Assembly (NCBI GenBank): GCA_018333515.1
Contig: JAGXSZ010000033.1
Coordinates: 1 to 61,480 of the forward strand
Length of the DNA: 61,480 bases
Direction of reading: 5' to 3'
Origin: Actinomycetota bacterium
Lineage (GTDB): Bacteria > Actinomycetota > Aquicultoria > Aquicultorales > Aquicultoraceae
The notes beneath the pieces were generated by a model. It worked only from the letters and a program-made list of their open reading frames with translations, was not told where the DNA came from and ran no database searches. Shown here in pieces: positions 46,531-61,349 of this stretch (positions are counted from its first letter, which is position 1; each line of letters begins with the position of its first letter). A program made the translations under genes and the position numbers.

Positions 46531-47367
46531 CTAAAAATCCCCATTTATGCCATTCAGCTCGGCCAGCGTAAAGACCGGGCCGTCCTTGCAGATGAAGAGG
46601 CTGCCGATGTTGCAGCGCCCGCAGAGGCCGACGCAACACTGCATCTTGCCCTCTAGCGTGGTCACTATCTGCTCGGGGCTAAAGTTCATCTCGGCCAAAT
46701 CTTGGAGGACGAACTTGATCATAATCGGCGGCCCGCAGGTTAAGGCGATCGCGTTCTCCGGCGATGGGGCGACCTCTTTTAGGATGGTCGGCACGAAGCC
46801 TACCTTGCCGCTCCATTTGTCGTCGCCGCAGTCTACGGTGATATTCATATCGAGGTCTTTGACCGCCCCCCAGCGCTCGTACTCCCATTTGAAGACGAGG
46901 TCTTCGGGGCTTCTCGCGCCGTAGACGAGCGTTATGTGCCCGAAATCGTCGCGGTTGTCGATGGCGTAGTTCAAAACGCTGCGAACCGGGGCCAGGCCGA
47001 TACCGCCGCCGATGATTATTAAGTTCTTGCCCTTCCAGGCATCGACGGGAAAACCGTTTCCGTAGGGGCCGCGGATGCCGAGTTTATCCCCCGCGCCCAT
47101 GGTGTGGATGTAGTCGGTGACCACGCCGCAGCGCTTGATGGAGAACTCGAGGTACTCGGTCTGCGTCGGAGACGAGGTTATAGAGATAACGCTCTCGCCC
47201 GCGCCGAAGACCGACAACTCGGCGACTTGACCCGGTCTTTGCTTGAAGTTCTCCCAGGCCTGCTCGTCGTCTATTCTGACCCGAAATGTCTTTACATCCG
47301 GCGTCTCGTCGAACGCCTCGATGATGGTGGCGATTGTCGGTACTAATGTTTTGACTGCGCTAGTCAT
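46531..47367 (-). CDS. floxA: FloxA-type NAD(P)H/FAD oxidoreductase subunit
   Basis: 278 residues of the ferredoxin-NADP reductase/PyrK/sulfhydrogenase-gamma family. FAD domain ISITSSPTQTEYLEFSI, NAD domain IIIGGGIGLAPVRSVLNY, and a C-terminal [2Fe-2S]-type cysteine cluster KMQCCVGLCGRCNIG. It should draw electrons from NADH into the Flox-Hdr complex. Start ATG directly follows the previous stop, with GGGAGGGG upstream. Last gene of the operon. Confidence 0.9.
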   Translation of the reverse strand: MTSAVKTLVPTIATIIEAFDETPDVKTFRVRIDDEQAWENFKQRPGQVAELSVFGAGESVISITSSPTQTEYLEFSIKRCGVVTDYIHTMGAGDKLGIRGPYGNGFPVDAWKGKNLIIIGGGIGLAPVRSVLNYAIDNRDDFGHITLVYGARSPEDLVFKWEYERWGAVKDLDMNITVDCGDDKWSGKVGFVPTILKEVAPSPENAIALTCGPPIMIKFVLQDLAEMNFSPEQIVTTLEGKMQCCVGLCGRCNIGSLFICKDGPVFTLAELNGINGDF

Positions 47368-48492
47368 CTAAACCCCTCCCGTCTTGACGGTCTCATCGGC
47401 CGGCTTTACTTCGCATGTGCGAACTTTTTCGTCTTCGCTTGGCAGCTCTTTCTCGAAGCCTACCGGCGCGGCGCCGGTAGCCGCAAGCGAGCCCTCTAAA
47501 AAGTCGCGGAGGTCATAGGAGACAGGGCAGCTTCTGATGCAGCGCCCGCAACCGACACAGTCGATGTCGCCGTATTTCTCCGGGAAGTAGCTGAATTTGT
47601 GGAGCATTCTCTGGCGCATGCGCTTCCAGTGGAACTCCCTGGGGTTGTGGCCGCCGGCCGCCCGGTTGTACTGGTAGAACATGCATGAATCCCAGCCACG
47701 ATAGCGCTCGCCTTTTCTGGTGTTGCCCTCGTCGCGCACGTCGAAACAGTAGCACGTCGGGCAGACAAAGGTACACGCGCCGCAGCTTAAGCACTTGTCG
47801 GTCAGCTTCCGCCAGAAAGCATCGTCGTTGAAGAGCGCGTCGAGCGTTTTGGCGTCGGCGATATCGAGCTTCGGCATCGAGTTTGCGACCTCTTCACCGA
47901 CGCGCTTGGCCGCCGCTTCGTCGTCGGCGCTCGCGTCGCTGAAGAGACCTTCGTTTGCCCTGATAAGCTCCTCGCCCTTCTCGGTGAGCGACTCGACGAG
48001 ATACTTATCACCGATGTCCATCATCCAGACGTCGCCGGTCTTCTCGTCGGGCGCGCCCCCTATCGAGGTACAAAAACACGTGCGGCAAGCGCTGGTACAC
48101 GCCGTTGTGACAAGCGCCGACGCGTTACGATGCCCCATATATTGGTTCTCGGGCAGCTCGGGGTCGAAGAAGGGTTTGTCGGTCAAGGTAAACGACCTGC
48201 TGTCGCAAGGGCGGATACCGAAGACCACCTTTTTCGTCCCGTTCTCATCCCCGGGTGTGACGGTGATGCCGTCCGGGTTTACCTCGAACGAAAGGATTTT
48301 CTCGACTTGCTTGAATATCAAGCCTTTCGGCGGGGTGTCTGTGCGAATATCCATCGCGGGCATCCGCCCTTTATCGATTTTCTTAAACGATGAGGCGCCC
48401 TCACCCTCCACCGGGGCGTAGACCTCGTAGGCCGCGACCAGCGAATCAAGCCAGGCTTGCAGGTTGCCGGCTGGTAATATCTTAGTGACCAC
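47368..48492 (-). CDS. floxB: FloxB-type iron-sulfur subunit (AsrA/sulfhydrogenase-beta family)
   Basis: 374 residues. C-terminal ferredoxin-like pair CLSCGACTFVCPTCYCFD and CVGCGRCIRSCPVSYDL binds two [4Fe-4S] clusters. An upstream TTACTSACRTCFC may hold another. The N-terminal part resembles the anaerobic sulfite reductase A / hydrogenase beta family. GTG 48492 overlaps the end of floxC and has GGAGGAG upstream. It should relay electrons between FloxA and the Hdr part. Confidence 0.87.
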   Translation of the reverse strand: MVTKILPAGNLQAWLDSLVAAYEVYAPVEGEGASSFKKIDKGRMPAMDIRTDTPPKGLIFKQVEKILSFEVNPDGITVTPGDENGTKKVVFGIRPCDSRSFTLTDKPFFDPELPENQYMGHRNASALVTTACTSACRTCFCTSIGGAPDEKTGDVWMMDIGDKYLVESLTEKGEELIRANEGLFSDASADDEAAAKRVGEEVANSMPKLDIADAKTLDALFNDDAFWRKLTDKCLSCGACTFVCPTCYCFDVRDEGNTRKGERYRGWDSCMFYQYNRAAGGHNPREFHWKRMRQRMLHKFSYFPEKYGDIDCVGCGRCIRSCPVSYDLRDFLEGSLAATGAAPVGFEKELPSEDEKVRTCEVKPADETVKTGGV

Positions 48493-49423
48493 TTTCCAAC
48501 TCCTCCTTACGGAAGACTTCCAGCGGCGGACGCGCATCCGCTTTCTCCCCCACGTTGAAATCGAAGAGTTTGCGCACCGCGTCGCCGACCTGCTTGTGCA
48601 GCAGGCTCAACGGTATGCCTACCGGGCACGCCCGCTCGCACGAGCCGCACTCGGTACAGCGCCCCGCCACGTGCATGGCGCGTTGGGCATGGAACATGAG
48701 TGCTTCTTTCGCGTCGAGTTTGGCGCCCGTCCAGCGCTCGCGCAGCGCTTGGACCGCGCAGTTATCGCGGCAGTAGCAGGCCGGGCACGCCTCGCGGCAC
48801 GCGTAGCAGCGTATGCAACGGTCGAACTCTTTGGCCCAGAAATCGCGCCACCAGGCCGAATCGGCGTCTTCGGGGACGATTGAGACCGCCTCACCGGTGA
48901 CTTTGGTGACGCCTTCGTCTATGACGATGTCGCCGAACGCGTTCTCCTGGTTACACAGGTAACACCTATCGAGCGCGACCTGTGCGAACGGCACCCGTTT
49001 AGCCTCGCCGTCTACCTCGACGACTATAGTGTCGCCATCGAGATAGGCCGCTGTGGCGTCGTCCAGCGAGCCGACAGCCGCCTCGAGCTTGGCCGGATTG
49101 ACCGTCCCCGGACACTTAATACTTATAACCTTGACGTTTTCGCGATCTATCTTGCCCTCCGCGATAAGGGCGACTACCGAGCCCGCGTCGCACGGCTTGG
49201 TTATGACCGCCGCTTTCTCATTTAACCTCGGAAGGTAAACCGCCAGGTTATTCTGGCAAAACGGATTAAAGACCAGCTTGCCCGCATCTTGCGCGTCGCG
49301 CGCGAAGAGCGGTGAGGCTTTCGCCGGGTTCCAACCCGCGCCCCAGCCGATGACCGTGGTCACCTCTTCCTTCTCGAGAAGCTCTTTCGCTTTTTCTCGC
49401 AGCTCCGCTTCGAGTTTTTCCAT
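48482..49423 (-). CDS. floxC: FloxC-type iron-sulfur subunit
   Basis: 313 residues. Two [4Fe-4S] motifs, CIRCYACREACPACYCRDNC and CTECGSCERACPVGIPL, plus further cysteines (RCYLCNQEN, KPCDAGS) in an FrhB-like N-terminal region. ATG starts two bases after the floxD stop. Role as a relay is inferred from Flox operons of sulfate reducers. Confidence 0.85.
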   Translation of the reverse strand: MEKLEAELREKAKELLEKEEVTTVIGWGAGWNPAKASPLFARDAQDAGKLVFNPFCQNNLAVYLPRLNEKAAVITKPCDAGSVVALIAEGKIDRENVKVISIKCPGTVNPAKLEAAVGSLDDATAAYLDGDTIVVEVDGEAKRVPFAQVALDRCYLCNQENAFGDIVIDEGVTKVTGEAVSIVPEDADSAWWRDFWAKEFDRCIRCYACREACPACYCRDNCAVQALRERWTGAKLDAKEALMFHAQRAMHVAGRCTECGSCERACPVGIPLSLLHKQVGDAVRKLFDFNVGEKADARPPLEVFRKEELESGH

Positions 49424-49425
49424 CT

Positions 49426-49902
49426 TTAAGCCTCAACCTTCTCTCCCGCGTTCTCTATCTCGGCAACCGTATCCGGAGCGAGCATAGAGAAAACGTCTGG
49501 GTTGAATTTACCTACTTTTTGGAGCGCGACTATAAAGTCCTCGACTTCCTCTTTGAGTTCCTTGCCCTCGGACGCCGCGATCCAGGTATACCTGAACCTC
49601 TCCGGCTCGATGCCGAGAACCGGTAGTATTTCGTTGAACAGCGCCAGGCGCCGCCTGGCATAGTAATTGCCCTCACGATAGTGGCAATCACCCGGGTGTC
49701 AGCCGGACACCATGACCCCGTCCGCGCCGTCGAGCAAAGCTTTAAGGGCGAACAAGGGGTCCATCCGGCCGGTACAAGGGATTCTTGCGATCCTCAAGTC
49801 CGCCGGATAGGCGAGTCGTAAATTGCCCGCCAAATCCGCACCGGCGTAGCTACACCAGTTGCAGAAAAACCCGATAATCTTGAACTCTTGATTATCTACC
49901 AC
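49426..49902 (-). CDS. floxD: MvhD/FloxD electron-transfer subunit, predicted selenoprotein (UGA = Sec at residue 68)
   Basis: 158 residues when UGA at 49699-49701 is read as selenocysteine. Before it: GFFCNWCSYAGADLAG and IPCTGRMDPLFALKALLDG. Across it: G-V-M-V-S-G-U-H-P-G-D-C-H-Y. After it: REGNYYARRRLALF, YTWIAASEGKEL and a normal C-terminus with TAA. MvhD proteins carry cysteine in G-C-H-x-G-D-C-H-Y at this place, and selenocysteine versions (VhuD) are known in methanogens. GTG 49902 overlaps the hdrA stop, so it is coupled. MvhD links HdrA to the electron-input module through a [2Fe-2S] cluster. Hairpins after the UGA exist, but none is a textbook SECIS. Confidence 0.85.
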
Positions 49903-51908
49903 TGTAATACCGCCTCTATCGATTTTAATATCTGCTCATCGGTCTGACCTCTGAGCTGCGCGGCGCCCGGACGGCACGCGGCCGAACAGGTTCCGCAACC
50001 CTGACACATCGCCTCGTTTACCTTGGCGAATTTCTTGCCTCTGAACTCTTCCATCGTGATCGCCGAGTACGGGCAGACCTCGACGCAGGCGCCGCAGGCC
50101 ACACATATCATCGGGTCGACATTGGCGACCATCGGGTCGCTCATCAATATATCATTCGAGAAGAGCACGCCGACTTTGGCGGCTACCGCACCGGCGGTCG
50201 CGACCGTGTCGGGAATATCTCTCGGCGATAGCGCCGCGCCGCAGGCGAAGACGCCTTCGCGCGGAACCTCGACCGGTTTCAGCTTCGGATGAACCTCGCT
50301 GATAAAGCCGTAAGCATCGGTGGTGATGCCGATTGTGTTTGCGAGAGCGACGCTGTCCTCGCGGGCGATCGAGCCGGTCGCTAGAATGATCATGTCGGCC
50401 TCCATCTCAAGCGGCATGCCGAGAATGGTGTCCGCGGCCTTCAGCACCAGGTGGCCGTCGTGCTCGTAGATGCGCGAAACGCGACCGCGCACGTAATTGG
50501 CGCCGTATTCGCGCTGGGCGCGCAGGACAAACTCCTCGTAACCTTTACCGGCCGCGCGGATGTCCATGTAGAAGACGTATATCTCGGCGTCGGGCAACTT
50601 TTCGCGCACCAAAATCGCCTGCTTCGCCGTGTACATGCAGCAGATGCGCGAACAATACGGGACGCCCTTGGCCTCATCGCGCGAGCCGACGCACTGGATA
50701 AAGGCGACTTTCTTCGGCTTCTCGCCGTTTGACGGCCTCACGATTTTGCCTTCGGTCGGGCCGGATGAGTTGACCATGCGCTCGAAGTCGAGCCCGGTGA
50801 TGACATCGGGTATTTCGCCCGCGCCGTACTCGCCGTATTTCTTCTGGTCGAAGAGGTTAAAGCCGGTCGCGAGTACAATCGCGCCGAACTTCTCGTTGAT
50901 AAGTTCGTCTTCCATATCGAAGTCGATTGCGCCCGGCTCGCATTTCTTGGCGCAGACGCCACATTTGCGCTTCGGCTTCTTCTCGCCTTCCGCGACCTCG
51001 ATGGTGTCGGGGTCCGGCGACAGCAGCCATTGGCAATACTCCTTGTCTATGACCGGGACTTTTGGAACGGCCTGCGCGAACGGCACATAGATAGCGCCGC
51101 GCGGCGCTTTGCCGTTCTCGAACTCGTTCGGGATTTTCTTCCTGAGCGGACACTTGGTCACGCACTCGAGACATCCGGTGCAGGTGCTCTCATCGACGAA
51201 CTTGGCTTTCTTTCGGATAGTCACGTTAAAATTACCGACGTAACCGTTGACGTTCTCGACCTCCGAATAGGTCAGCAACCGTATCTTCGGGTGCTGCGCC
51301 ACATCGACCATTCTCGGCGAGAGAATACACGCCGAGCAGTCGAGCGTCGGGAAGGTCTTATCGAGCTGCGCCATGCGCCCGCCGATAGACGGTTCCTTCT
51401 CGACCATGACGACCTCGTATCCCATGTTGGCTATATCGAGCGCCGCCTGAATTCCCGCTATTCCTCCCCCGATTACCAACGCGCGCTTCTCGACCGTGAC
51501 CCGGCCCGGCGTAAGCGGTTTGGCGAAGGAGACCTTGCCGACCGCCGCCTTTACCAAGTCGAAGGCTTTGCGCGTCGCGCTGTCCTTGTCCGCCGTCACC
51601 CACGAGACATGCTCGCGCAGGTTGGCGATTTCGAGCATGTACGGGTTGAGACCCGCCTGTTCGATAGTCTTTCTAAAAGTATTCTCATGCATCTTCGGCG
51701 AGCAAGAACCGATGACGACCTTGTCGATGCGGTTTTCCTTTATCGCGTCGATTATCACTTTTTGCCCGGCCTCAGAGCAGGAATACTTCTGGTGGCTCGA
51801 ATACACTACGCCGGGTATATCGATAGCGTCGTCAGAGACTTTCGCCACGTCTACCTTGCCCGCGATGTTCGTACCACAATGACAGATAAATACACCGACT
51901 CTTGACAT
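49896..51908 (-). CDS. hdrA: Heterodisulfide reductase subunit A (FAD, bifurcating core)
   Basis: 670 residues. N-terminal cluster domain (ICHCGTNIAG, YSCSEAGQ, GSCSPKMHENTF), FAD-binding VIGGGIAGIQAALD with LDCSACILSPRM, inner ferredoxin motifs CTGCLECVTKCPLR and CGVCAKKCEPGAI, and a C-terminal pair ICVACGACVEVCPYSAI and CQGCGTCSAACRPGA. The flavin of HdrA splits electrons between ferredoxin and the disulfide branch. The N-terminal cysteine that is selenocysteine in some archaeal HdrA is cysteine here. Confidence 0.95.
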   Translation of the reverse strand: MSRVGVFICHCGTNIAGKVDVAKVSDDAIDIPGVVYSSHQKYSCSEAGQKVIIDAIKENRIDKVVIGSCSPKMHENTFRKTIEQAGLNPYMLEIANLREHVSWVTADKDSATRKAFDLVKAAVGKVSFAKPLTPGRVTVEKRALVIGGGIAGIQAALDIANMGYEVVMVEKEPSIGGRMAQLDKTFPTLDCSACILSPRMVDVAQHPKIRLLTYSEVENVNGYVGNFNVTIRKKAKFVDESTCTGCLECVTKCPLRKKIPNEFENGKAPRGAIYVPFAQAVPKVPVIDKEYCQWLLSPDPDTIEVAEGEKKPKRKCGVCAKKCEPGAIDFDMEDELINEKFGAIVLATGFNLFDQKKYGEYGAGEIPDVITGLDFERMVNSSGPTEGKIVRPSNGEKPKKVAFIQCVGSRDEAKGVPYCSRICCMYTAKQAILVREKLPDAEIYVFYMDIRAAGKGYEEFVLRAQREYGANYVRGRVSRIYEHDGHLVLKAADTILGMPLEMEADMIILATGSIAREDSVALANTIGITTDAYGFISEVHPKLKPVEVPREGVFACGAALSPRDIPDTVATAGAVAAKVGVLFSNDILMSDPMVANVDPMICVACGACVEVCPYSAITMEEFRGKKFAKVNEAMCQGCGTCSAACRPGAAQLRGQTDEQILKSIEAVLQW

Positions 51909-51909
51909 A

Positions 51910-52794
51910 CTAACCGACTTCCTTTGCTTCGTCGGCTCCTTGCCGACGTTTATCGATAAGCCTCATCACTTCTCCGTCGATCTCCAAATCCTGCTCGTCG
52001 GCGTTGAGCGCCACACCGAGAAGTTGGGAGAAATAGACGACTGGTATTTCGCTTTTCAACCCATATTTCCGCATCATAAGCGGTTGGCGCATCACCAAGT
52101 TCATGTGGCAGAGCGGGCACGCCGCCGCGACGAGATCCGCGCCGGCGGAGACCGCCGCGTTGAGGATGTTGCGAACCAAGTTGAGCGTCATATCCTTGTC
52201 GACCATTATGTAGGCGTTGCCGCAGCACTCGGTCTTGTGCGACCACTTGACCGGTGTGGCTCCCGCCGCTTCCATCAATCTATCCATAGACATAGGGTTT
52301 TCGACGTCGTCGAATTGCGCGATTTTCGGCGGGCGAACCAGCAGGCAGCCATAGTACGAGGCCACTTTGAGGTTTTTGAGCGGTTTAGTTACTTTGCCCT
52401 CGAACACGCCCTTCTCCAGGGCGTTGTGCGCGGCCTCGACCGTCGAGACGACGCGGACGCTGCCCGGAAGATACTCGAGACCCGCCTCTTTGAGGGTGTC
52501 GCGTACCTCACTGTCATGCTCAAGCTCGACGGCGGCCTCTTTGAGGCTCATAAAACATGAGGCGCACGGCGCGACGATGTCGCCGATTTCGCTCGCCAAG
52601 ACCAGGTTGCGCCCGGCGATTGCCGCGGCCATCTCCCGGTCGACTTTGTGCGCCTGCGACGAGCCGCAGCACGACCAATCCGGCACCTCTTTTAGCCCGA
52701 TGCCGAGTTTATCGAAGACGGCCCGGGTCGAGGTATCATATTCTTTAGCGCTCGTCTCAAGCGAGCACCCTGGGAAATAAGCGTAAGTCCGCAT
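51910..52794 (-). CDS. hdrB: Heterodisulfide reductase subunit B
   Basis: 294 residues with two complete CCG domains: C10, WSCCGSSQ and APCASCF in the first; YYGCLLV, TECCGNAY and ACPLCHMN in the second. These hold the two non-cubane [4Fe-4S] clusters that reduce a disulfide or a DsrC-like partner. ATG overlaps the hdrC stop by one base (TAATG). Confidence 0.95.
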   Translation of the reverse strand: MRTYAYFPGCSLETSAKEYDTSTRAVFDKLGIGLKEVPDWSCCGSSQAHKVDREMAAAIAGRNLVLASEIGDIVAPCASCFMSLKEAAVELEHDSEVRDTLKEAGLEYLPGSVRVVSTVEAAHNALEKGVFEGKVTKPLKNLKVASYYGCLLVRPPKIAQFDDVENPMSMDRLMEAAGATPVKWSHKTECCGNAYIMVDKDMTLNLVRNILNAAVSAGADLVAAACPLCHMNLVMRQPLMMRKYGLKSEIPVVYFSQLLGVALNADEQDLEIDGEVMRLIDKRRQGADEAKEVG

Positions 52795-53363
52795 TACTTA
52801 TCCCCTTCCTTCTTCGCTTTTTTACCGTTGAAGAGCTTCTGGAAATTGTTGAGGTCTTTTATCTGGTGACCGAAGAGGGGAAACTTGCCCTGGAAAAACA
52901 TCGGGATGCCTACGTCGAGGTCACCGAGGTAGTCCTTGGTCGCCACCTTCATGGCCATAGCCAAAGGCAACTCGTGGACACGTCCGTTGCTCTTGACCGA
53001 CTCGACGAATTTCTCACGCAGCGCGGACGCGGCGGGGTCGGCTACGATCCCTTCGCGCTTCGCGATTTGCGTTATCGCCTCACAGACCTTCGCTACATCC
53101 ACGTCGTTTGGACAACGCGTGTAACACGTTGCGCAAGCAACACAATTCCAAATCATCTTCGACTCCAGTACCTTACTACTCCCCCACTGCGCCAGACGTA
53201 AGACGATATGCGGTGGGATATCCTGGTACGGAGCGACCGGGCAGCCTGCCGTGCACTTACCGCAAAGGTAGCACATGTCGACTTTCTGCCCCGACAACCT
53301 GTCAATCTCTTTCTTTAAATCCGCGTCGATGGACTTAAATCTCGCGGCCGCGCCCAAAACCAT
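52794..53363 (-). CDS. hdrC: Heterodisulfide reductase subunit C
   Basis: 189 residues. Two [4Fe-4S] motifs CYLCGKCTAGCPVAPY and CVACATCYTRCPNDVD in the usual HdrC spacing. It carries electrons from HdrA to HdrB. No membrane helix, so the complex is soluble. ATG 53363 has GGAAGGAAGGG directly upstream. First gene of the seven-gene operon. Confidence 0.94.
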   Translation of the reverse strand: MVLGAAARFKSIDADLKKEIDRLSGQKVDMCYLCGKCTAGCPVAPYQDIPPHIVLRLAQWGSSKVLESKMIWNCVACATCYTRCPNDVDVAKVCEAITQIAKREGIVADPAASALREKFVESVKSNGRVHELPLAMAMKVATKDYLGDLDVGIPMFFQGKFPLFGHQIKDLNNFQKLFNGKKAKKEGDK

Positions 53364-53430
53364 ACCCTTCCTTCCGGTCGATATCTCGCAACGAAGATTG
53401 TGAAGCAATCCACAATCGGCATACAATATT

Positions 53431-53456: not shown

Positions 53457-53950
53457 ATCCTCTTGTCTATTAACTTACGCTCGTCTCTTGGCTTACCAGT
53501 CAAGTCATCCGCATGCTATTTTACTATAGCCGCATAGCCATAAGTATTCAACAATGAGCTGCAAAAATCAACACATTTTACTAATTCTTTATCAAGCTTT
53601 GTGTCCAATGTTACGTAGTCTATCGCGTTATCCACGTTTCTTCCAATATTATACATCGTTATTGGTAGGTTTTGAAGACTAAGCGTCGTTCGCCGTGCCG
53701 AGATTCTCGCGGTTATGAGGGTCACAACCTAATCGCGCGCTTCGCGTGCCCGGTTGAGGGCTATTGCGAAAGCGCGGACAGCATCCGTCCAGCCCTCCCC
53801 CTTGCTTGCGCTCGCGTCACGGATATCTACCCGCCGACCCCATCCCATAGAGCTGCTTAAACATAAAACGCCGTTTCACGCCGGGTTTGCCCCATCCGGC
53901 TTGCGGGAAAAGGAACGCTGCGAGCACGCAAAGAGAGGTGGCGATGAGCC
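53457..53950. other. Intergenic region between the divergent hdr and cytochrome operons
   Basis: About 490 bases, AT-rich to 53680 and GC-rich beyond. It must contain the promoters of both operons, but I find no clean -35/-10 pair. A 46-codon reverse frame (start 53656, stop 53516) lacks a ribosome-binding site and is not called a gene. Confidence 0.5.
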
Positions 53951-54907
53951 CTGAGAAGACGAGTAGTTATAGCGCTCGCGGTGCTGGTTATCCTTGTAAT
54001 CGCCGGGTACGCGAGCCTCGAGATAACAGCTCTGCCCGCGTTCTGTAAACTCTGCCACCAGATGACCCCTTTCTATCTCTCCTGGCAAGAAGCTCCCCAT
54101 AAGGACTTCGCTTGCATCGATTGCCATGAGGGAGAAGGCGTCGCGGGCTTTGTCTACCATCTCCTCGACTCCTCGGTTTCGATAGTCGGATGGGTCACCG
54201 GCGATTACGAGGAACCCATAGTCGGCTTTCTGCCGGATGTCTGGTGCTTAAAATGCCACGAGGAGGTTGTAGGGCAGCCGGTCGTGACCGCGAACGGTAT
54301 CCGAATGAGCCATAGTGAGCCCAAAGCCGACGCCTGGAACTGCATCGACTGCCATAGCGGGGTCGGCCATCCCAAAGGGACCGCCTGGCCCACCTTCCCC
54401 AGAATGGAGGATTGTTTCTACTGCCACGACGGCAAACGCGCCTCGTTCGCGTGCGGCGTGTGCCACACGCGAGACGTCACCGGCCTGCCGTCCGGTTCGC
54501 ACGGGGCCCCGAATTTCAGGCAAGAGACCCACGTCGTGCTCGGACGCGGGTCGCTCTTTAACTGCCGTCCGTGCCACGGCGCGCAGGCCGGCGCCGACCC
54601 GTGTTTTGAATGCCACCGGCTCTCCCTTCCCCATGCGGCGGATTTTGTGACCGCCCATGGCGAACTGGTCCGCACCGACAAGGTCGACTGCTCGGACTGC
54701 CATAAGGACGAAGGGTTTTGCGGCAACTGCCACGGGCTCGAGATGCCGCACCGGGAGGGATTCGTCGTCGACCATATCGATATCGCGCAGGAGCGCGAGG
54801 ATGAGCTTTGCCTGCGCTGCCATACGCAAAAAGATTGTATTGATTGCCACGGGCAACACCCCGAGAACACCGGGCACAAGACAATAGAGGGCAAAGATGA
54901 GCGATAA
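53951..54907 (+). CDS. Membrane-anchored 12-heme cytochrome c (NapC/NirT-like N-terminus)
   Basis: 318 residues if begun at CTG 53951. That start gives a proper anchor, LRRRVVIALAVLVILVIAG, directly before the first heme site PAFCKLCH. A GTG at 53981 would cut the helix in half. Twelve CXXCH motifs follow (CKLCH, CIDCH, CLKCH, CIDCH, CFYCH, CGVCH, CRPCH, CFECH, CSDCH, CGNCH, CLRCH, CIDCH). An ATG with a good ribosome-binding site lies at 53944 in another frame, so a one-base error is the other explanation. NapC-like proteins take electrons from quinol. The gene overlaps the next cytochrome by 11 bases. Confidence 0.85.
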   Translation: MRRRVVIALAVLVILVIAGYASLEITALPAFCKLCHQMTPFYLSWQEAPHKDFACIDCHEGEGVAGFVYHLLDSSVSIVGWVTGDYEEPIVGFLPDVWCLKCHEEVVGQPVVTANGIRMSHSEPKADAWNCIDCHSGVGHPKGTAWPTFPRMEDCFYCHDGKRASFACGVCHTRDVTGLPSGSHGAPNFRQETHVVLGRGSLFNCRPCHGAQAGADPCFECHRLSLPHAADFVTAHGELVRTDKVDCSDCHKDEGFCGNCHGLEMPHREGFVVDHIDIAQEREDELCLRCHTQKDCIDCHGQHPENTGHKTIEGKDER

Positions 54908-55829
54908 GCCGGGGGCGCCGGACAACCTTAATAGCGGTAGCGAAGATGTTGGCGGGCAACGCGCCGGACTCTGGACTCGCCTGCGCGGATATCTCCGGAC
55001 GCCTTCCGGAAAGCGGCTTCTCTTGTGGGTCTTGACCGCTTTCGCGGTCGTCTTCGTCCTGGCCGTCGCGCTGGAGGTCGCCCGGGAGCCCTTCGTCTGC
55101 CAATACTGCCATATGGTGCGCGGCGAATGGGAGGCCTGGCGGGCCGGCCCTCACAAAGAGGTCGGCTGCGAGTCGTGCCACATAGGGCCGGGGGTGCTCG
55201 GTTATCTCTTCTTCCTCACCGACGCCTCGGTCGGGTTGTACGAAACGATAACCGGCGATTATCCCGACCCTATAACATCGAATGTGCCGCGCCGGGAGTG
55301 TCTCGCCTGCCACGAGGAGACCAACAAGAAGACGCTTACCGTAGGCGGCATAAAAGTGAGTCACAAAGAGATGTTTTCGGCCGGGCTTCGCTGCACGAAC
55401 TGCCACGCCGCCACCGGGCACCCGGCCAAAAGCAACGTCTTTTTTCAGCAAGCGACCCCGCAAATGGAGAGCTGCGCCCAGCGCGACTGCCACAACGGCA
55501 AAGACGCCCCGAACGGCTGCGGAACGTGCCATACGCAAAACCCGCAGGCTCGCGCCGGTCTGGATAAGCCGGTCGCCGGCTCGCACGATATCGAGGTCGA
55601 TTTCGGCACTATCGAGAATGTCGCGGCCTGCGGCACCTGTCATAAGCGCCGATTTTGCGCCGACTGCCACGGTCTCGAGTTGCCGCATCCCGCCGCCTTT
55701 ATCGCGACCCATTTCAACTTCATCGACCGGCTCGGCCCCGCGCTCTGCGCAAAGTGCCATGATAACGATCCGGCGACACCAAGGGGGTGCTTCGAGGGTG
55801 AATGTCATCCGCGGGAACCGTCTCGATAG
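54897..55829 (+). CDS. Membrane-anchored 10-heme cytochrome c
   Basis: 310 residues. Gly/Asn-rich N-terminus, one membrane helix (about 44-65, LLLWVLTAFAVVFVLAVAL), then eight CXXCH sites (CQYCH, CESCH, CLACH, CTNCH, CGTCH, CGTCH, CADCH, CAKCH) and two CX4CH sites (CAQRDCH, CFEGECH). The same anchor-plus-CXXCH beginning as the preceding protein shows that they are paralogues (EPFVCQYCHM against LPAFCKLCHQ). Likely second carrier on the outer membrane face. Confidence 0.9.
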   Translation: MSDKPGAPDNLNSGSEDVGGQRAGLWTRLRGYLRTPSGKRLLLWVLTAFAVVFVLAVALEVAREPFVCQYCHMVRGEWEAWRAGPHKEVGCESCHIGPGVLGYLFFLTDASVGLYETITGDYPDPITSNVPRRECLACHEETNKKTLTVGGIKVSHKEMFSAGLRCTNCHAATGHPAKSNVFFQQATPQMESCAQRDCHNGKDAPNGCGTCHTQNPQARAGLDKPVAGSHDIEVDFGTIENVAACGTCHKRRFCADCHGLELPHPAAFIATHFNFIDRLGPALCAKCHDNDPATPRGCFEGECHPREPSR

Positions 55830-55865
55830 CTGCGGGAGTATATACATTAGCAGAGCCGGGGAACG

Positions 55866-58250
55866 GTGGCCTCGATGCTAGCCCCAGAGCGAATCTCGTC
55901 GACCATGCGAACACCGGTCTTGCTTGTCGCGATAACCATCGTTGGATTACTCGCGGCCGTATGGCTCCTCTGGCCAACGCAGCAGGCGGCCGCGCTGCCG
56001 GAGTGGGGTGTCCACGCGGGCGGCGACTGCTCGGCCTGCCACGTCCATCCCGACCGGTTCGCGTGCCCCGATTGTCACAAGCCGGCACAGGCAAACCTCG
56101 CCTGCGGCCGCCTCGATGGCTGCCACACCGGCACCACCAGCCCGACCGAATTCTGCTGGAATTGTCACATCCAAGAGAACAGCCATGTCGACGCGCTGAC
56201 AAAAGGCGGCGATGAACGGGGCGGGACGGTTCCCCTCTGCACTGCGTGCCATGGCGACGCGCACGGCTTTCCGGCGGGTTGCCGGGGTTGTCACTCGGTG
56301 GCCACTCACAACACGCACACCGGCCAGGCGAGCGTCTTCGACACACTCGCCCAGGTAGACCTTACCGCCTGCGGTGCCTGCCATCCGGGAAAAAACCCGC
56401 ATGGGCCGCAACAGATAGATTGTCTCGTCTGTCACCCGGCGAAACACACGCCTGAGACCCGCGCGACGCTCCAATGCGCGACCTGCCACCCGCTGCAGCC
56501 GCACGACGGGCTCGATTGCATCGATTGCCATATCGGACTCGACAGCATCGAAGATACGTCGACGCAGCACAATATCGAGATACGGATTCCGGATTGCCGT
56601 GATTGCCACGGACTGGAGCTCCACCCGGGGGCTGTTAACTGCGGCACCTGCCACGGGGCGAACATCCAACATGAGACGCTGCCCACCATTCCCGGACTTA
56701 CTGTATGCCTCACCTGCCATCCGGCGCAAGCCGAGCATGCGGGCGGCGCTCCGTGTACGAGCTGCCACACCGATACCGTCCACAGCACGACGCCGCAGAC
56801 CCCGGCGCCGCAGTTTAGCGGCTGCTTCCAGTGTCACCCGAGACAGTCGACTGCCGGCAACTGTTTTGAGTGCCACCCCAGAGAGGGAGCGCATGACTTC
56901 GATAGGGTGCAACGCCCCTGCGGCGGGTGCCACAACCAGGAGTTTCACGCGGGGACGATTCCGTGCGGCGGGTGCCATGTTATGGACCACCACGACAACC
57001 GGCTGGTCATAACGCGGGACGAGTGTGAGGATTGTCATGAGTTGGAACTCCACCCGGGAACCGACGAGTGCGAGGACTGTCACGGGCAGACGAATGTGCA
57101 CAAAGCAGAGCCGTTCATCCCGGGCTTCGACGTCTGCCTCACCTGCCATCCGGCGCAAGCCGAGCATGCGGGCGGCGCTCCGTGTACGAGCTGCCACACC
57201 GATACCGTCCACAGCACGACGCCGCAGACCCCGGCGCCGCAGTTTAGCGGCTGCTTCCAGTGTCACCCGAGACAGTCGACTGCCGGCAACTGTTTTGAGT
57301 GCCACCCCAGAGAGGGAGCGCATGACTTCGATAGGGTGCAACGCCCCTGCGGCGATTGCCATAACCAACAATTTCATGCCGGAACAGTCGCGTGCGCTCA
57401 ATGCCATGCGCTCGACCATCACGACAACAGGCTGGTGGTGACAAAAGATGATTGCCGGGACTGCCATGCCCTCGCGCTCCATCCGGGGGCCGTCAATTGC
57501 GATACCTGCCACGGCGAAGGCAACCAGCACAAATCGATGCCAACCGTCCCGAGCCTCGATATCTGCCTCGATTGCCATCCGCTCGCCCGCGGCAACTGCT
57601 TAGGCAGGTGCCACGGCAGCCAGATCCACGAGAGCAATCCGTCCGTCCCCTTCTGCACCGGTTGCCACGCGCAGCGCATCCACGCGGATTCGGTGACCTG
57701 CACACGCTGCCATCAGGTCAACGACCATCACCGCGAGGCGTTTAGCGTCCGCGAGTGCCAGGCGTGCCACAACCAGAACTATCACGCGGGGGGTGTCGCG
57801 TGCGCAAACTGCCACCTCCCCGTCCACGGGGCGACCGCTGTCCCCGGCGAGAGCAGCTGTTTTAACTGTCATCGCGTGGCGCATGCGAGCCGCGACTGCC
57901 TCGTCTGCCACACAGCGCTCCGCGTCCACCACCGCATCACCGAGCGCGCGCTAAAAATAATCAGGGTGCCAAAGCGGCTCGCCACCGCCCTCGAGCGCTC
58001 GCTCGACGCCCAAATACCGGACCTGCGCGGTATTAGCCCGGATGGGCTGCCCATTCCCGCGACCGAGGGAGCCGCGACCATCGCCCCTAAACGTCCGCTA
58101 ATCGAGCGCCTGCCGCTCACCGGCTTGTCGACCATAGACATCGTCTTCCCGGTCGTGCTCATCCTCGCGCTTATCGCAGTAGCTATGCTGGCCTTGAGCG
58201 CGCGCGAGCGGACGAAGCGCGGGCAAGACGATGACACTGCGAACCCTTAA
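55866..58250 (+). CDS. 34-heme cytochrome c with LPLTG cell-wall sorting signal
   Basis: 794 residues. Signal peptide (about 14-38, ending WPTQQAAA), then 34 CXXCH motifs plus CX5CH and CX3CH variants up to about residue 690. The C-terminus reads LPLTG (749-753), a 25-residue hydrophobic helix and a basic tail RERTKRG, the three-part signal used by sortases to fix proteins to peptidoglycan. Hemes 12-19 and 20-27 are a duplicated unit of 143 residues, with 220 bases identical. GTG start (or ATG at 55875). Would act as a long electron wire through the wall; no sortase gene is in the window. Confidence 0.9.
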   Translation: MASMLAPERISSTMRTPVLLVAITIVGLLAAVWLLWPTQQAAALPEWGVHAGGDCSACHVHPDRFACPDCHKPAQANLACGRLDGCHTGTTSPTEFCWNCHIQENSHVDALTKGGDERGGTVPLCTACHGDAHGFPAGCRGCHSVATHNTHTGQASVFDTLAQVDLTACGACHPGKNPHGPQQIDCLVCHPAKHTPETRATLQCATCHPLQPHDGLDCIDCHIGLDSIEDTSTQHNIEIRIPDCRDCHGLELHPGAVNCGTCHGANIQHETLPTIPGLTVCLTCHPAQAEHAGGAPCTSCHTDTVHSTTPQTPAPQFSGCFQCHPRQSTAGNCFECHPREGAHDFDRVQRPCGGCHNQEFHAGTIPCGGCHVMDHHDNRLVITRDECEDCHELELHPGTDECEDCHGQTNVHKAEPFIPGFDVCLTCHPAQAEHAGGAPCTSCHTDTVHSTTPQTPAPQFSGCFQCHPRQSTAGNCFECHPREGAHDFDRVQRPCGDCHNQQFHAGTVACAQCHALDHHDNRLVVTKDDCRDCHALALHPGAVNCDTCHGEGNQHKSMPTVPSLDICLDCHPLARGNCLGRCHGSQIHESNPSVPFCTGCHAQRIHADSVTCTRCHQVNDHHREAFSVRECQACHNQNYHAGGVACANCHLPVHGATAVPGESSCFNCHRVAHASRDCLVCHTALRVHHRITERALKIIRVPKRLATALERSLDAQIPDLRGISPDGLPIPATEGAATIAPKRPLIERLPLTGLSTIDIVFPVVLILALIAVAMLALSARERTKRGQDDDTANP
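56706..56925 (+). repeat. 220-base direct repeat, copy 1
   Basis: Inside the 34-heme gene; identical by eye to 57135-57354. Encodes heme sites 12 to most of 16. Confidence 0.95.
57135..57354 (+). repeat. 220-base direct repeat, copy 2
   Basis: Second identical copy, 429 bases (143 codons) downstream of the first, in the same frame. Encodes heme sites 20 to most of 24. Confidence 0.95.
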
Positions 58251-59649: not shown

Positions 59650-61236
59650 TTATTGAGGCATTATTCCGCCCTTCTCGGGACGCGAGTAGGTATGGCACCA
59701 GGAACAATCCCAATTCTGGATATCCGTGTGCAGATAGTGTCCCTCCTCATAGTTCGGCCAGTTCCTGTCGACGTGACACTGGGAGCAGATGATCGGCTTC
59801 GTATTCTTCAGGTTGTAGCCCAGCTCGCCGACGAGATTCATCCGTGTGGTATTCGCGTGGCAATCGTTGCACTGGAGCACTCGGGTTGCCGTCGGCGATA
59901 CCTGATGATTAAGCAACTGGTAGGTATCCGTAATGGCCCACTCCCATGCGGTTGTGGATGCAAGGCCCATGTTTACAAGGCCTTTTTCGACCGATCTAGT
60001 AGCGTCACCGGAAACCACGAGAAACTCGTAGGTGTCAAGAGCGATCAGCTTCTTGTCGGCCGTTACCATCGGCTGCTCTGCTGTCTTATACTTGAACGGG
60101 TATAACTTGGTGCCTAGGGCACCGTCAACAGAGCCGACCGGACGCGATGTCGGGCGATAGCCGGTCGCCGCGTCGATTGTCGATAAATCGTGGAGCAGAT
60201 AAGAGTTGTTCCTCCTATCCCAGAACTTATACTTCGGCATTAGATCGTTTTGTCTGATTATAGACGGGTGATACTGTCCGCCCGAGAAGGTGCTGGTCTT
60301 CCACGTACGGTGAACCTCGGTCGCCTCTGATGCCGCGGTGTCACCGGCATTCTTGCCATAGGTCGGGACATGACAGGTCTGGCAGGCCACCCTGGCTACG
60401 TGATCGTTGACCGCCGCTGTTGTGTGACCGGTAGACGACGCTTTGTTCGGGTGGCAGGTGGAGTTGGAGCACGTTACCTCGGAATGAGGATTGGACGCAT
60501 CGCTGTAATCCATCTGCCTGATATCGGACCCCTTACCGATTACTTTGTGGCCGGTGAACTTGTGGCAAGCCTGGCAAGTAAGGTTGGCGCCGGTCGTCGA
60601 CAAGTGCACATCATAGCCCCTGTCGGTTGTGCTTATCGATGCCAGGGCCAGAGTACCCCTCTTCAAGGCATCGCCGCCACCCGCTCTAGCGTGACACATG
60701 ATGCAGTTTTTCCTGGTCGGCTTAGTTATGTTCTTAACATAGCCATCGAGGGTTGCCGTGTCTGTGGTCGAGGGACCCATCGATCCATCGGATAGCCTAA
60801 CCCTTGCCGCCGCGTAGTCCTCGTTGTGGCACATCAAGCAATCGATATTGGCAAGCTGCGTATCGGTCGGGCTCGTTGTCGCGACCGGCTGTGCGCCGCG
60901 ACCGGCGTGGCATCTGCCGCAAACCGCCCAGTTACCCAAGATGTTTACGCAGTAGCTGTTAACCGAATTGCTGATCTTGCCCTGCTTGACGAGTGGCTGG
61001 TTGGCGTTATCTTTGGCATCGCCCAGCCACTGATAATGAACGCCCTGGTACATATCATTGTACCTGCTCTTGTGGTCTTTAGCGGTGCCGGTGTGGCAGG
61101 CATCGTTTAAGCACTTGCTCGGATAATCGGCCCAGACCAGGTTGGCGTGCGGGTTGGTAGCCCCGCCGGCTACATTAACAAACGTGGCCAACATCGCGAC
61201 CAGCATGACTGCCAGGAATAATAAGCGCTTGTTCAC
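59650..61236 (-). CDS. Secreted 10-heme cytochrome c
   Basis: 528 residues. Signal peptide MNKRLLFLAVMLVAMLATF, no lipobox or anchor. Ten heme sites: CX4CH (CLNDACH), CGRCH, CLMCH, CIMCH, CQACH, CX4CH (CSNSTCH), CQTCH, CNDCH, CSQCH, CSWCH. Hemes 8-10 are separated from the rest by about 150 residues that could form a substrate or docking domain (YKFWDRRNNSYLLHD). GTG 61236 is chosen for AAAGGAGG seven bases upstream; the frame is open further up but carries no signal peptide. Substrate unknown; octaheme tetrathionate-reductase-like or extracellular carrier are possible. Confidence 0.88.
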   Translation of the reverse strand: MNKRLLFLAVMLVAMLATFVNVAGGATNPHANLVWADYPSKCLNDACHTGTAKDHKSRYNDMYQGVHYQWLGDAKDNANQPLVKQGKISNSVNSYCVNILGNWAVCGRCHAGRGAQPVATTSPTDTQLANIDCLMCHNEDYAAARVRLSDGSMGPSTTDTATLDGYVKNITKPTRKNCIMCHARAGGGDALKRGTLALASISTTDRGYDVHLSTTGANLTCQACHKFTGHKVIGKGSDIRQMDYSDASNPHSEVTCSNSTCHPNKASSTGHTTAAVNDHVARVACQTCHVPTYGKNAGDTAASEATEVHRTWKTSTFSGGQYHPSIIRQNDLMPKYKFWDRRNNSYLLHDLSTIDAATGYRPTSRPVGSVDGALGTKLYPFKYKTAEQPMVTADKKLIALDTYEFLVVSGDATRSVEKGLVNMGLASTTAWEWAITDTYQLLNHQVSPTATRVLQCNDCHANTTRMNLVGELGYNLKNTKPIICSQCHVDRNWPNYEEGHYLHTDIQNWDCSWCHTYSRPEKGGIMPQ

Positions 61237-61349
61237 TAAGTTTCCTCCTTTGCAATACGTCAATTCGTTCTTTGAAAATCGCTCAATCTTCATAAAAATC
61301 TTCACCTCCTCGTTTTGCTTATTTACACCCGCTTGAGCAACGGGGTATT

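Follow-up and report, generated by a model that had tools for sequence, protein, structure and literature searches.

A 34-heme cytochrome with a predicted LPXTG sortase anchor in a bacterium of the class Aquicultoria (Actinomycetota)

It is unsettled how electrons cross the thick wall of Gram-positive cells, and current models have cytochromes either packed into the wall or loosely bound in it. In Thermincola potens and Carboxydothermus, quinol-linked membrane cytochromes and large surface multiheme proteins (OcwA, OmhA) form a proposed route for electrons through the Gram-positive wall (PMC6497744, PMC9686372), whose thickness is 20-80 nm (PMC6497744); these proteins are described as lying embedded or packed inside the wall, and those accounts mention no covalent sortase signal. 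Reviews describe cytochromes as 'anchored to the peptidoglycan' without giving a mechanism (PMC6497744), and in the surface proteome of Desulfotomaculum reducens sortase-type anchors were looked for and not found (PMC4137172). The giant cytochromes of ANME are likewise very large secreted multiheme proteins on the outer envelope, some of them with a C-terminal helix, but they are archaeal and carry S-layer domains, not LPXTG (PMC9012536). Since small ANME cytochromes carry PGF-CTERM archaeosortase signals for lipid attachment (PMC9012536), enzyme-mediated anchoring of a cytochrome is not without parallel.

In Gram-positive bacteria, substrates of LPXTG sortases (Gram_pos_anchor, PF00746) combine an export signal, a long exposed region, a proline-containing spacer, LPXTG, a helix and a charged tail, and sortases occur in the same genome. 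The protein described here has the same layout, and it differs from those substrates in its cargo, which is a 34-heme cytochrome. In the full-text literature searched, which covers few subscription papers and no preprints, no cytochrome is described as anchored by a sortase; within that literature, the device is known and its cargo here is without precedent. A covalent anchor, if true, would fix the electron carriers in place and make their path open to simple tests.

The gene lies in the window, that is, in the whole stretch of 61,480 nucleotides that was analysed (contig JAGXSZ010000033.1), and its features are collected in Table 1. A sequence-only reading had attributed to it 34 CXXCH sites, a signal peptide and a C-terminal sorting signal, and had predicted a cytochrome covalently linked to peptidoglycan. 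The count is confirmed at exactly 34 CXXCH, to which we add a CX3CH at residue 578, which may be the site of a 35th heme, and a CX5CH at residue 80. The reading frame opens with GTG at 55866, alternative ATG codons stand at 55875 and 55905, and translation likely starts at one of these three. The protein contains 72 cysteines and 73 histidines, a number of histidines that would suffice for bis-His coordination, and it matches PF14522 (39.8 bits) and PF14537 (29.8 bits), both above cut-off. By its number of CXXCH sites, its export signal and its cytochrome c7/c3-type domains, it qualifies as a multiheme c-type cytochrome. The signal peptide, too, holds up as a prediction: a hydrophobic helix of 20 residues precedes PTQQAAALPEW, where a signal peptidase could plausibly cut.

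Table 1. Features of the cytochrome operon and of the sortase-cytochrome pair found elsewhere in the genome. Positions are those of the window unless a locus (L) is named.
Feature	Position	Strand	Basis
Gene 1: membrane-bound 12-heme NapC/NirT-type cytochrome	53951..54907	+	PF03264 E 2e-11, PF14522; upstream sequence, translation
Gene 2: membrane-bound NapC/NirT-type cytochrome, 8 CXXCH + two CX4CH	54897..55829	+	PF03264, PF14522; homologues before giant cytochrome in G029/G030, G075/G264
Giant multiheme cytochrome, 794 aa, 34 CXXCH + one CX3CH	55866..58250	+	ORF translation, motif count, PF14522/PF14537
Predicted Sec signal peptide, aa 14-44, possible cleavage ...QQAAA/LPEW	55905..55997	+	sequence; AlphaFold2 helix 15-35; cleavage inferred
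Heme-binding region, aa 55-682	56028..57911	+	CXXCH positions
Tandem repeat copy 1, 300 nt, 92% identity, 429-nt period = 143 aa, 8 hemes	56703..57002	+	repeat search; heme spacing
Tandem repeat copy 2	57132..57431	+	repeat search
Heme-free spacer, aa 683-748, separating hemes from sorting motif	57912..58109	+	sequence
LPLTG sorting motif, aa 749-753	58110..58124	+	motif search; PF00746 match 58107-58208
C-terminal hydrophobic helix, aa 759-779	58140..58202	+	sequence; AlphaFold2 helix 757-791
Charged tail RERTKRGQDDDTANP	58203..58247	+	sequence
Convergent pair: QAxTG-tailed cytochrome c and class E-like sortase-TPR	L050:9529-10113 (+) and L050:10220-11626 (-); also, in other genomes, L081-L088, L090, L091	+ and -	

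Within the heme-binding region, the series of CXXCH spacings 16-23-13-19-15-20-15-22 occurs exactly twice. From this doubled series and the 300-nt repeat we conclude that the giant cytochrome grew by duplication of an 8-heme module of 143 residues. The AlphaFold2 model (five sequences) reaches high confidence in just two helices, at residues 15-35 and 757-791, and its heme part is uninformative, because the mean pLDDT is 35.9. In known cytochrome filaments the hemes are spaced at about 0.7-1 nm per heme. If the 34 hemes formed a chain at such a spacing, its length would be some 25-35 nm, comparable to the thickness of a Gram-positive wall, which is a matter of arithmetic and not evidence. Compared by sequence with solved surface multiheme proteins, as a test for a Gram-positive terminal reductase of the OcwA/OmhA type, the protein matches none of them; the one hit, a weak one, is subunit A of Alternative Complex III (E 0.0036).

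The C-terminus reads ...KRPLIERLPLTGLSTIDIVFPVVLILALIAVAMLALSARERTKRGQDDDTANP, so that LPLTG, a helix and the RERTKR tail stand in the tripartite order of a sorting signal, with the predicted helix beginning directly after LPLTG; this part of the sequence-only reading likewise agrees with what we find. In a search of the genome, the PF00746 (Gram_pos_anchor) model matches the cytochrome at 19.1 bits (E 0.004), against a curated cut-off of 20, and the tail fragment alone scores 17.6 bits against the same cut-off. The cytochrome thereby ranks third in the genome for this model, after an LPYTG protein (27.0 bits) and an LPFTG protein (20.0 bits). The NCBIfam LPXTG models match neither the giant cytochrome nor the LPFTG protein. 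The charged tail has 15 residues and includes an acidic DDD, which we count against sortase anchoring.

It is important to ask how often such a motif would arise by chance. Given the local amino acid composition, an LPXTG is expected at 1.9e-5 per residue, or about 2e-4 within the 12 residues before the C-terminal helix, and the LPLTG tail is therefore very unlikely to be accidental. Among 153 reading frames taken from the genome, LPXTG occurs only three times, each time in a tail that combines LPXTG with a helix; this count is biased, because two of the three loci were fetched for matching PF00746. The DNA pattern for LPXTG proves nothing by itself, since its 82+55 matches barely exceed the 60+48 obtained with a reversed control. 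Other LPXTG candidates from the class were set aside, as they are not multiheme.

The sequence-only reading had proposed a search of the genome for sortases and their preferred motif. The assembly holding the window (40 contigs; stated completeness 100% and contamination 0.25%) encodes four sortases above the Pfam cut-off: C12 (251 aa), C9 (468 aa, with TPRs), C22 (206 aa) and C27 (232 aa), all of them with intact catalytic His, Cys and Arg. Among the NCBIfam class models, class E gives the top score for three of them and class C for one (C22), and none of these scores reaches its class cut-off; for C9, class E is the best-scoring model, at 118.5 bits against a cut-off of 160. None of the four genes is near the giant-cytochrome operon, a further point against the anchor. 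The LPYTG protein (L048:2918-3538) sits 4 kb from the C27 sortase; in genome G005 an LPFTG protein adjoins a related sortase, and in G034 an LPYTG protein adjoins a sortase. Within the class, 29 of 36 genomes encode sortases. From these neighbours and this spread, LP[aromatic or hydrophobic]TG appears to be the working type of motif here, and LPLTG would fit it. On the tripartite tail, the four sortases, the third rank under PF00746 and the LPYTG gene 4 kb from a sortase, we consider sortase anchoring of the giant cytochrome to be well supported as a prediction.

Two further proteins were observed in the same genome. A repetitive secreted protein of 897 residues (L049:5619-8312, +) lies two genes from the LPFTG protein, and has a C-terminal helix and a KPKRR tail without LPXTG. 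A 275-residue protein with SLH-like repeats (L050:13279-14106, +) suggests that S-layer or SLH-bound surface proteins occur in the same organism. Together with the sortases, the SLH-type protein may indicate a thick wall and a single membrane. The genome has no WhiB.

The giant cytochrome is the third and last gene of a compact operon of three multiheme genes (53951-58250), and the products of the first two combine N-terminal NapC/NirT domains with cytochrome c7-like regions. Several further pairs of NapC/NirT-like cytochromes occur elsewhere in the genome. We propose that the operon encodes an electron conduit across the envelope, in which a NapC/NirT-type pair feeds a secreted 34-heme cytochrome joined to peptidoglycan by a sortase through its LPLTG, and we assign this reading a probability of about 0.68. 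That is, the two membrane-anchored cytochromes would exchange electrons with the quinol pool and pass them to the 34-heme protein, which would be exported by Sec and held at first by its C-terminal helix; a sortase would then cut LPLTG between T and G and join the cytochrome to the peptidoglycan. The heme chain would thus be fixed in the wall, reaching outward to an external acceptor or donor, such as a mineral, a partner cell or another cytochrome. The model draws directly on the observed gene order, the heme motifs, the architecture of the sorting signal, the four sortases of the assembly and the comparable LP[YF]TG proteins. We infer from these the cleavage, the covalent linkage, the acting sortase, the heme occupancy, the direction and partner of electron flow, and the single membrane.

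If the anchor is a general property of this cytochrome family, then the homologues should carry LPXTG tails, as the sequence-only reading had suggested might be looked for. There is no close orthologue in the genus or family, nor among the 36 genomes of the class, and at E 1e-12 only 5 of 396 genomes of the phylum, the present one included, give a match. In G029 and G030 (same class, family f12) a three-gene operon ends with a 14-heme gene whose product has a C-terminal helix and basic tail without a TG motif. In G075 and G264 (another family of the phylum, f38) a smaller multiheme gene precedes a 27-heme protein, and the operon context is shared in part. In both f12 and f38 at least one upstream multiheme gene is lipoprotein-like, judged from a lipobox recognised by eye, and not of the NapC type. 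The 27-heme proteins (L079:4060-6198, -; L080:6940-9093, +) end in FSGTG or FTNTG, followed by ADLRIYVLLGGALMMAG, a helix, RR and then about 60 mostly basic residues; the tail reads DEFSGTGADLRIYVLLGGALMMAGMVARYWRR, or has FTNTG in its place. By eye this tail looks like a sorting signal, and a Pfam search of it gave no sorting-signal match; it may be a sorting signal that has degenerated, or else a long-tailed membrane anchor. Thus, the LPXTG motif is not conserved across the homologues. The four sortases, the LP[YF]TG substrates and the tripartite tail speak for the sortase-anchor reading, whereas its expectation of a conserved motif fails. The refuting condition named in that reading, homologues without a conserved LPXTG, thus holds in part: the cytochrome family extends beyond this anchor, which varies by lineage.

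Other candidate relatives were rejected: among plasmids the only match, in Emticicia, was at 22%, and a scan of GTDB contigs returned one weak Bryobacterales locus that was not informative. We also considered horizontal acquisition on grounds of base composition and set it aside, as the GC3 of the three operon genes (0.73-0.76, versus 0.68 with sd 0.08 in neighbouring genes) is not clearly foreign.

One alternative is that LPLTG is incidental or a relict and that the C-terminal helix anchors the protein in the membrane for good, in which case the cytochrome would be tethered to the cytoplasmic membrane and extend into the wall without a covalent bond. G029 and G030 agree with this, because they share the operon and the helix with its basic tail and have no TG motif, and because one of them has a single sortase and the other, which is incomplete, none. 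Yet an LPXTG would stand right before the helix of any given protein with a chance of only some 2e-4, and the present genome holds, besides its four sortases, two other LP[YF]TG proteins of like build. We therefore regard a permanent anchor as unlikely.

The remaining alternatives accept an envelope location and differ on what the protein does there. It would be quite improbable, in our judgement, for the cytochrome to be mainly a heme-rich store or redox buffer of the envelope with no role in outward transfer. A count of CXXCH alone cannot reveal function, and AlphaFold2 gave no usable structure for the heme region, but the co-encoded NapC/NirT-type cytochromes point to quinol exchange, and further NapC/NirT-like pairs occur elsewhere in the genome. 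We give very little credence to the idea that a sortase polymerises the LPLTG cytochrome into a covalent, pilus-like conductive fibre instead of attaching single molecules to the wall: C22 does reach its highest score, though far below cut-off, under the class C (pilus) sortase model, but there is no match to a pilin family, no sortase gene adjoins that of the giant cytochrome, and none of the neighbours of C22 is a matching substrate.

Attachment of cytochromes by sortases, the reading that we prefer, can also be approached from a different gene pair in the same genome. The C9 sortase is adjoined by a monoheme cytochrome c of 194 residues, whose C-terminus is ...GQQAETGVEMVWYLLGGGMLLGSGISLRNKNKQ. 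The sortase-TPR gene is present in 12 genomes of the class, and 11 of these, which span four families, have a cytochrome c-like gene next to it; in the twelfth genome, G004, no QAxTG cytochrome gene adjoins it. All 11 cytochromes end in [EQ]QAxTG, a helix and a basic tail, and have a linker that is free to vary in length and sequence. The heme motif is CXXCH in 10 of the 11, and CX6CH (CSDTQSGCH) in the member from G009 (L085:1994-2641, +). An invariant QAxTG next to a variable linker is the pattern that recognition by a sortase would produce.

Where other substrates have proline, those of class E sortases may have alanine, which the enzymes accept by means of a tyrosine in the beta3/beta4 loop; this residue is Tyr229 of Streptomyces SrtE1 and lies in the sequence GHY; SrtE1 cleaves LPETG as well, with a two-fold preference for LAETG (PMC5148588). 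All 12 sortase-TPR proteins have GPGHY at the equivalent position, the GHY being aligned with that of the solved sortase 5go5. Among the four sortases of the present genome, the tyrosine is found only in C9, the residue being M in C12 and V in C22 and C27. Thus, the sole enzyme expected to read alanine stands beside the sole alanine substrate found. The system resembles that of SrtE1, whose motif is LAXTG, in that class E is the top-scoring model for three of the four sortases and C9 has both the tyrosine and an alanine-motif neighbour; it differs in that all class E scores are below 160 bits, that C9 carries a TPR extension, and that the apparent motif is QAxTG. Because SrtE1 also cleaves LPETG, any of the four sortases might process LPLTG.

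The conserved pair of sortase and cytochrome c offers a second, evolutionarily tested case, with the specific motif QAxTG. It is an independent instance of a tailed cytochrome beside a sortase, and an unexpected, stronger clue; anchoring of cytochromes by sortases seems to recur in the class. More tentatively, and at somewhat less than even odds, this could be an old and general strategy of the class, in which many lineages use a dedicated class E-like sortase-TPR to attach a small QAxTG cytochrome c to the wall. The giant multiheme cytochromes with LPXTG, and possibly FTNTG, would be additional clients, and the result would be a path for electrons across a thick wall that is put together by covalent bonds.

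Some details of the operon and its surroundings may be added. Gene 1 was called from GTG at 53981, and an upstream CTG at 53951 yields a signal anchor headed by RRR; gene 1 probably starts at this CTG, which would supply the RRR n-region. In the same place (53940-53985) a good ribosome site precedes an ATG at 53944 that is out of frame with the gene 1 cytochrome, which means either that the CTG is the start or that the sequence contains a frameshift of one base or an error of assembly. Directly upstream and divergent from the operon (46531-53426, -) lie genes for an FAD/NAD oxidoreductase, two 4Fe-4S proteins and HdrABC-like proteins, resembling an Flx-Hdr bifurcation cluster. Two genes downstream of the operon (59650-61305, -) is a gene for a secreted protein of 551 residues with 8 CXXCH and a Cytochrome_cB (PF11783) domain.
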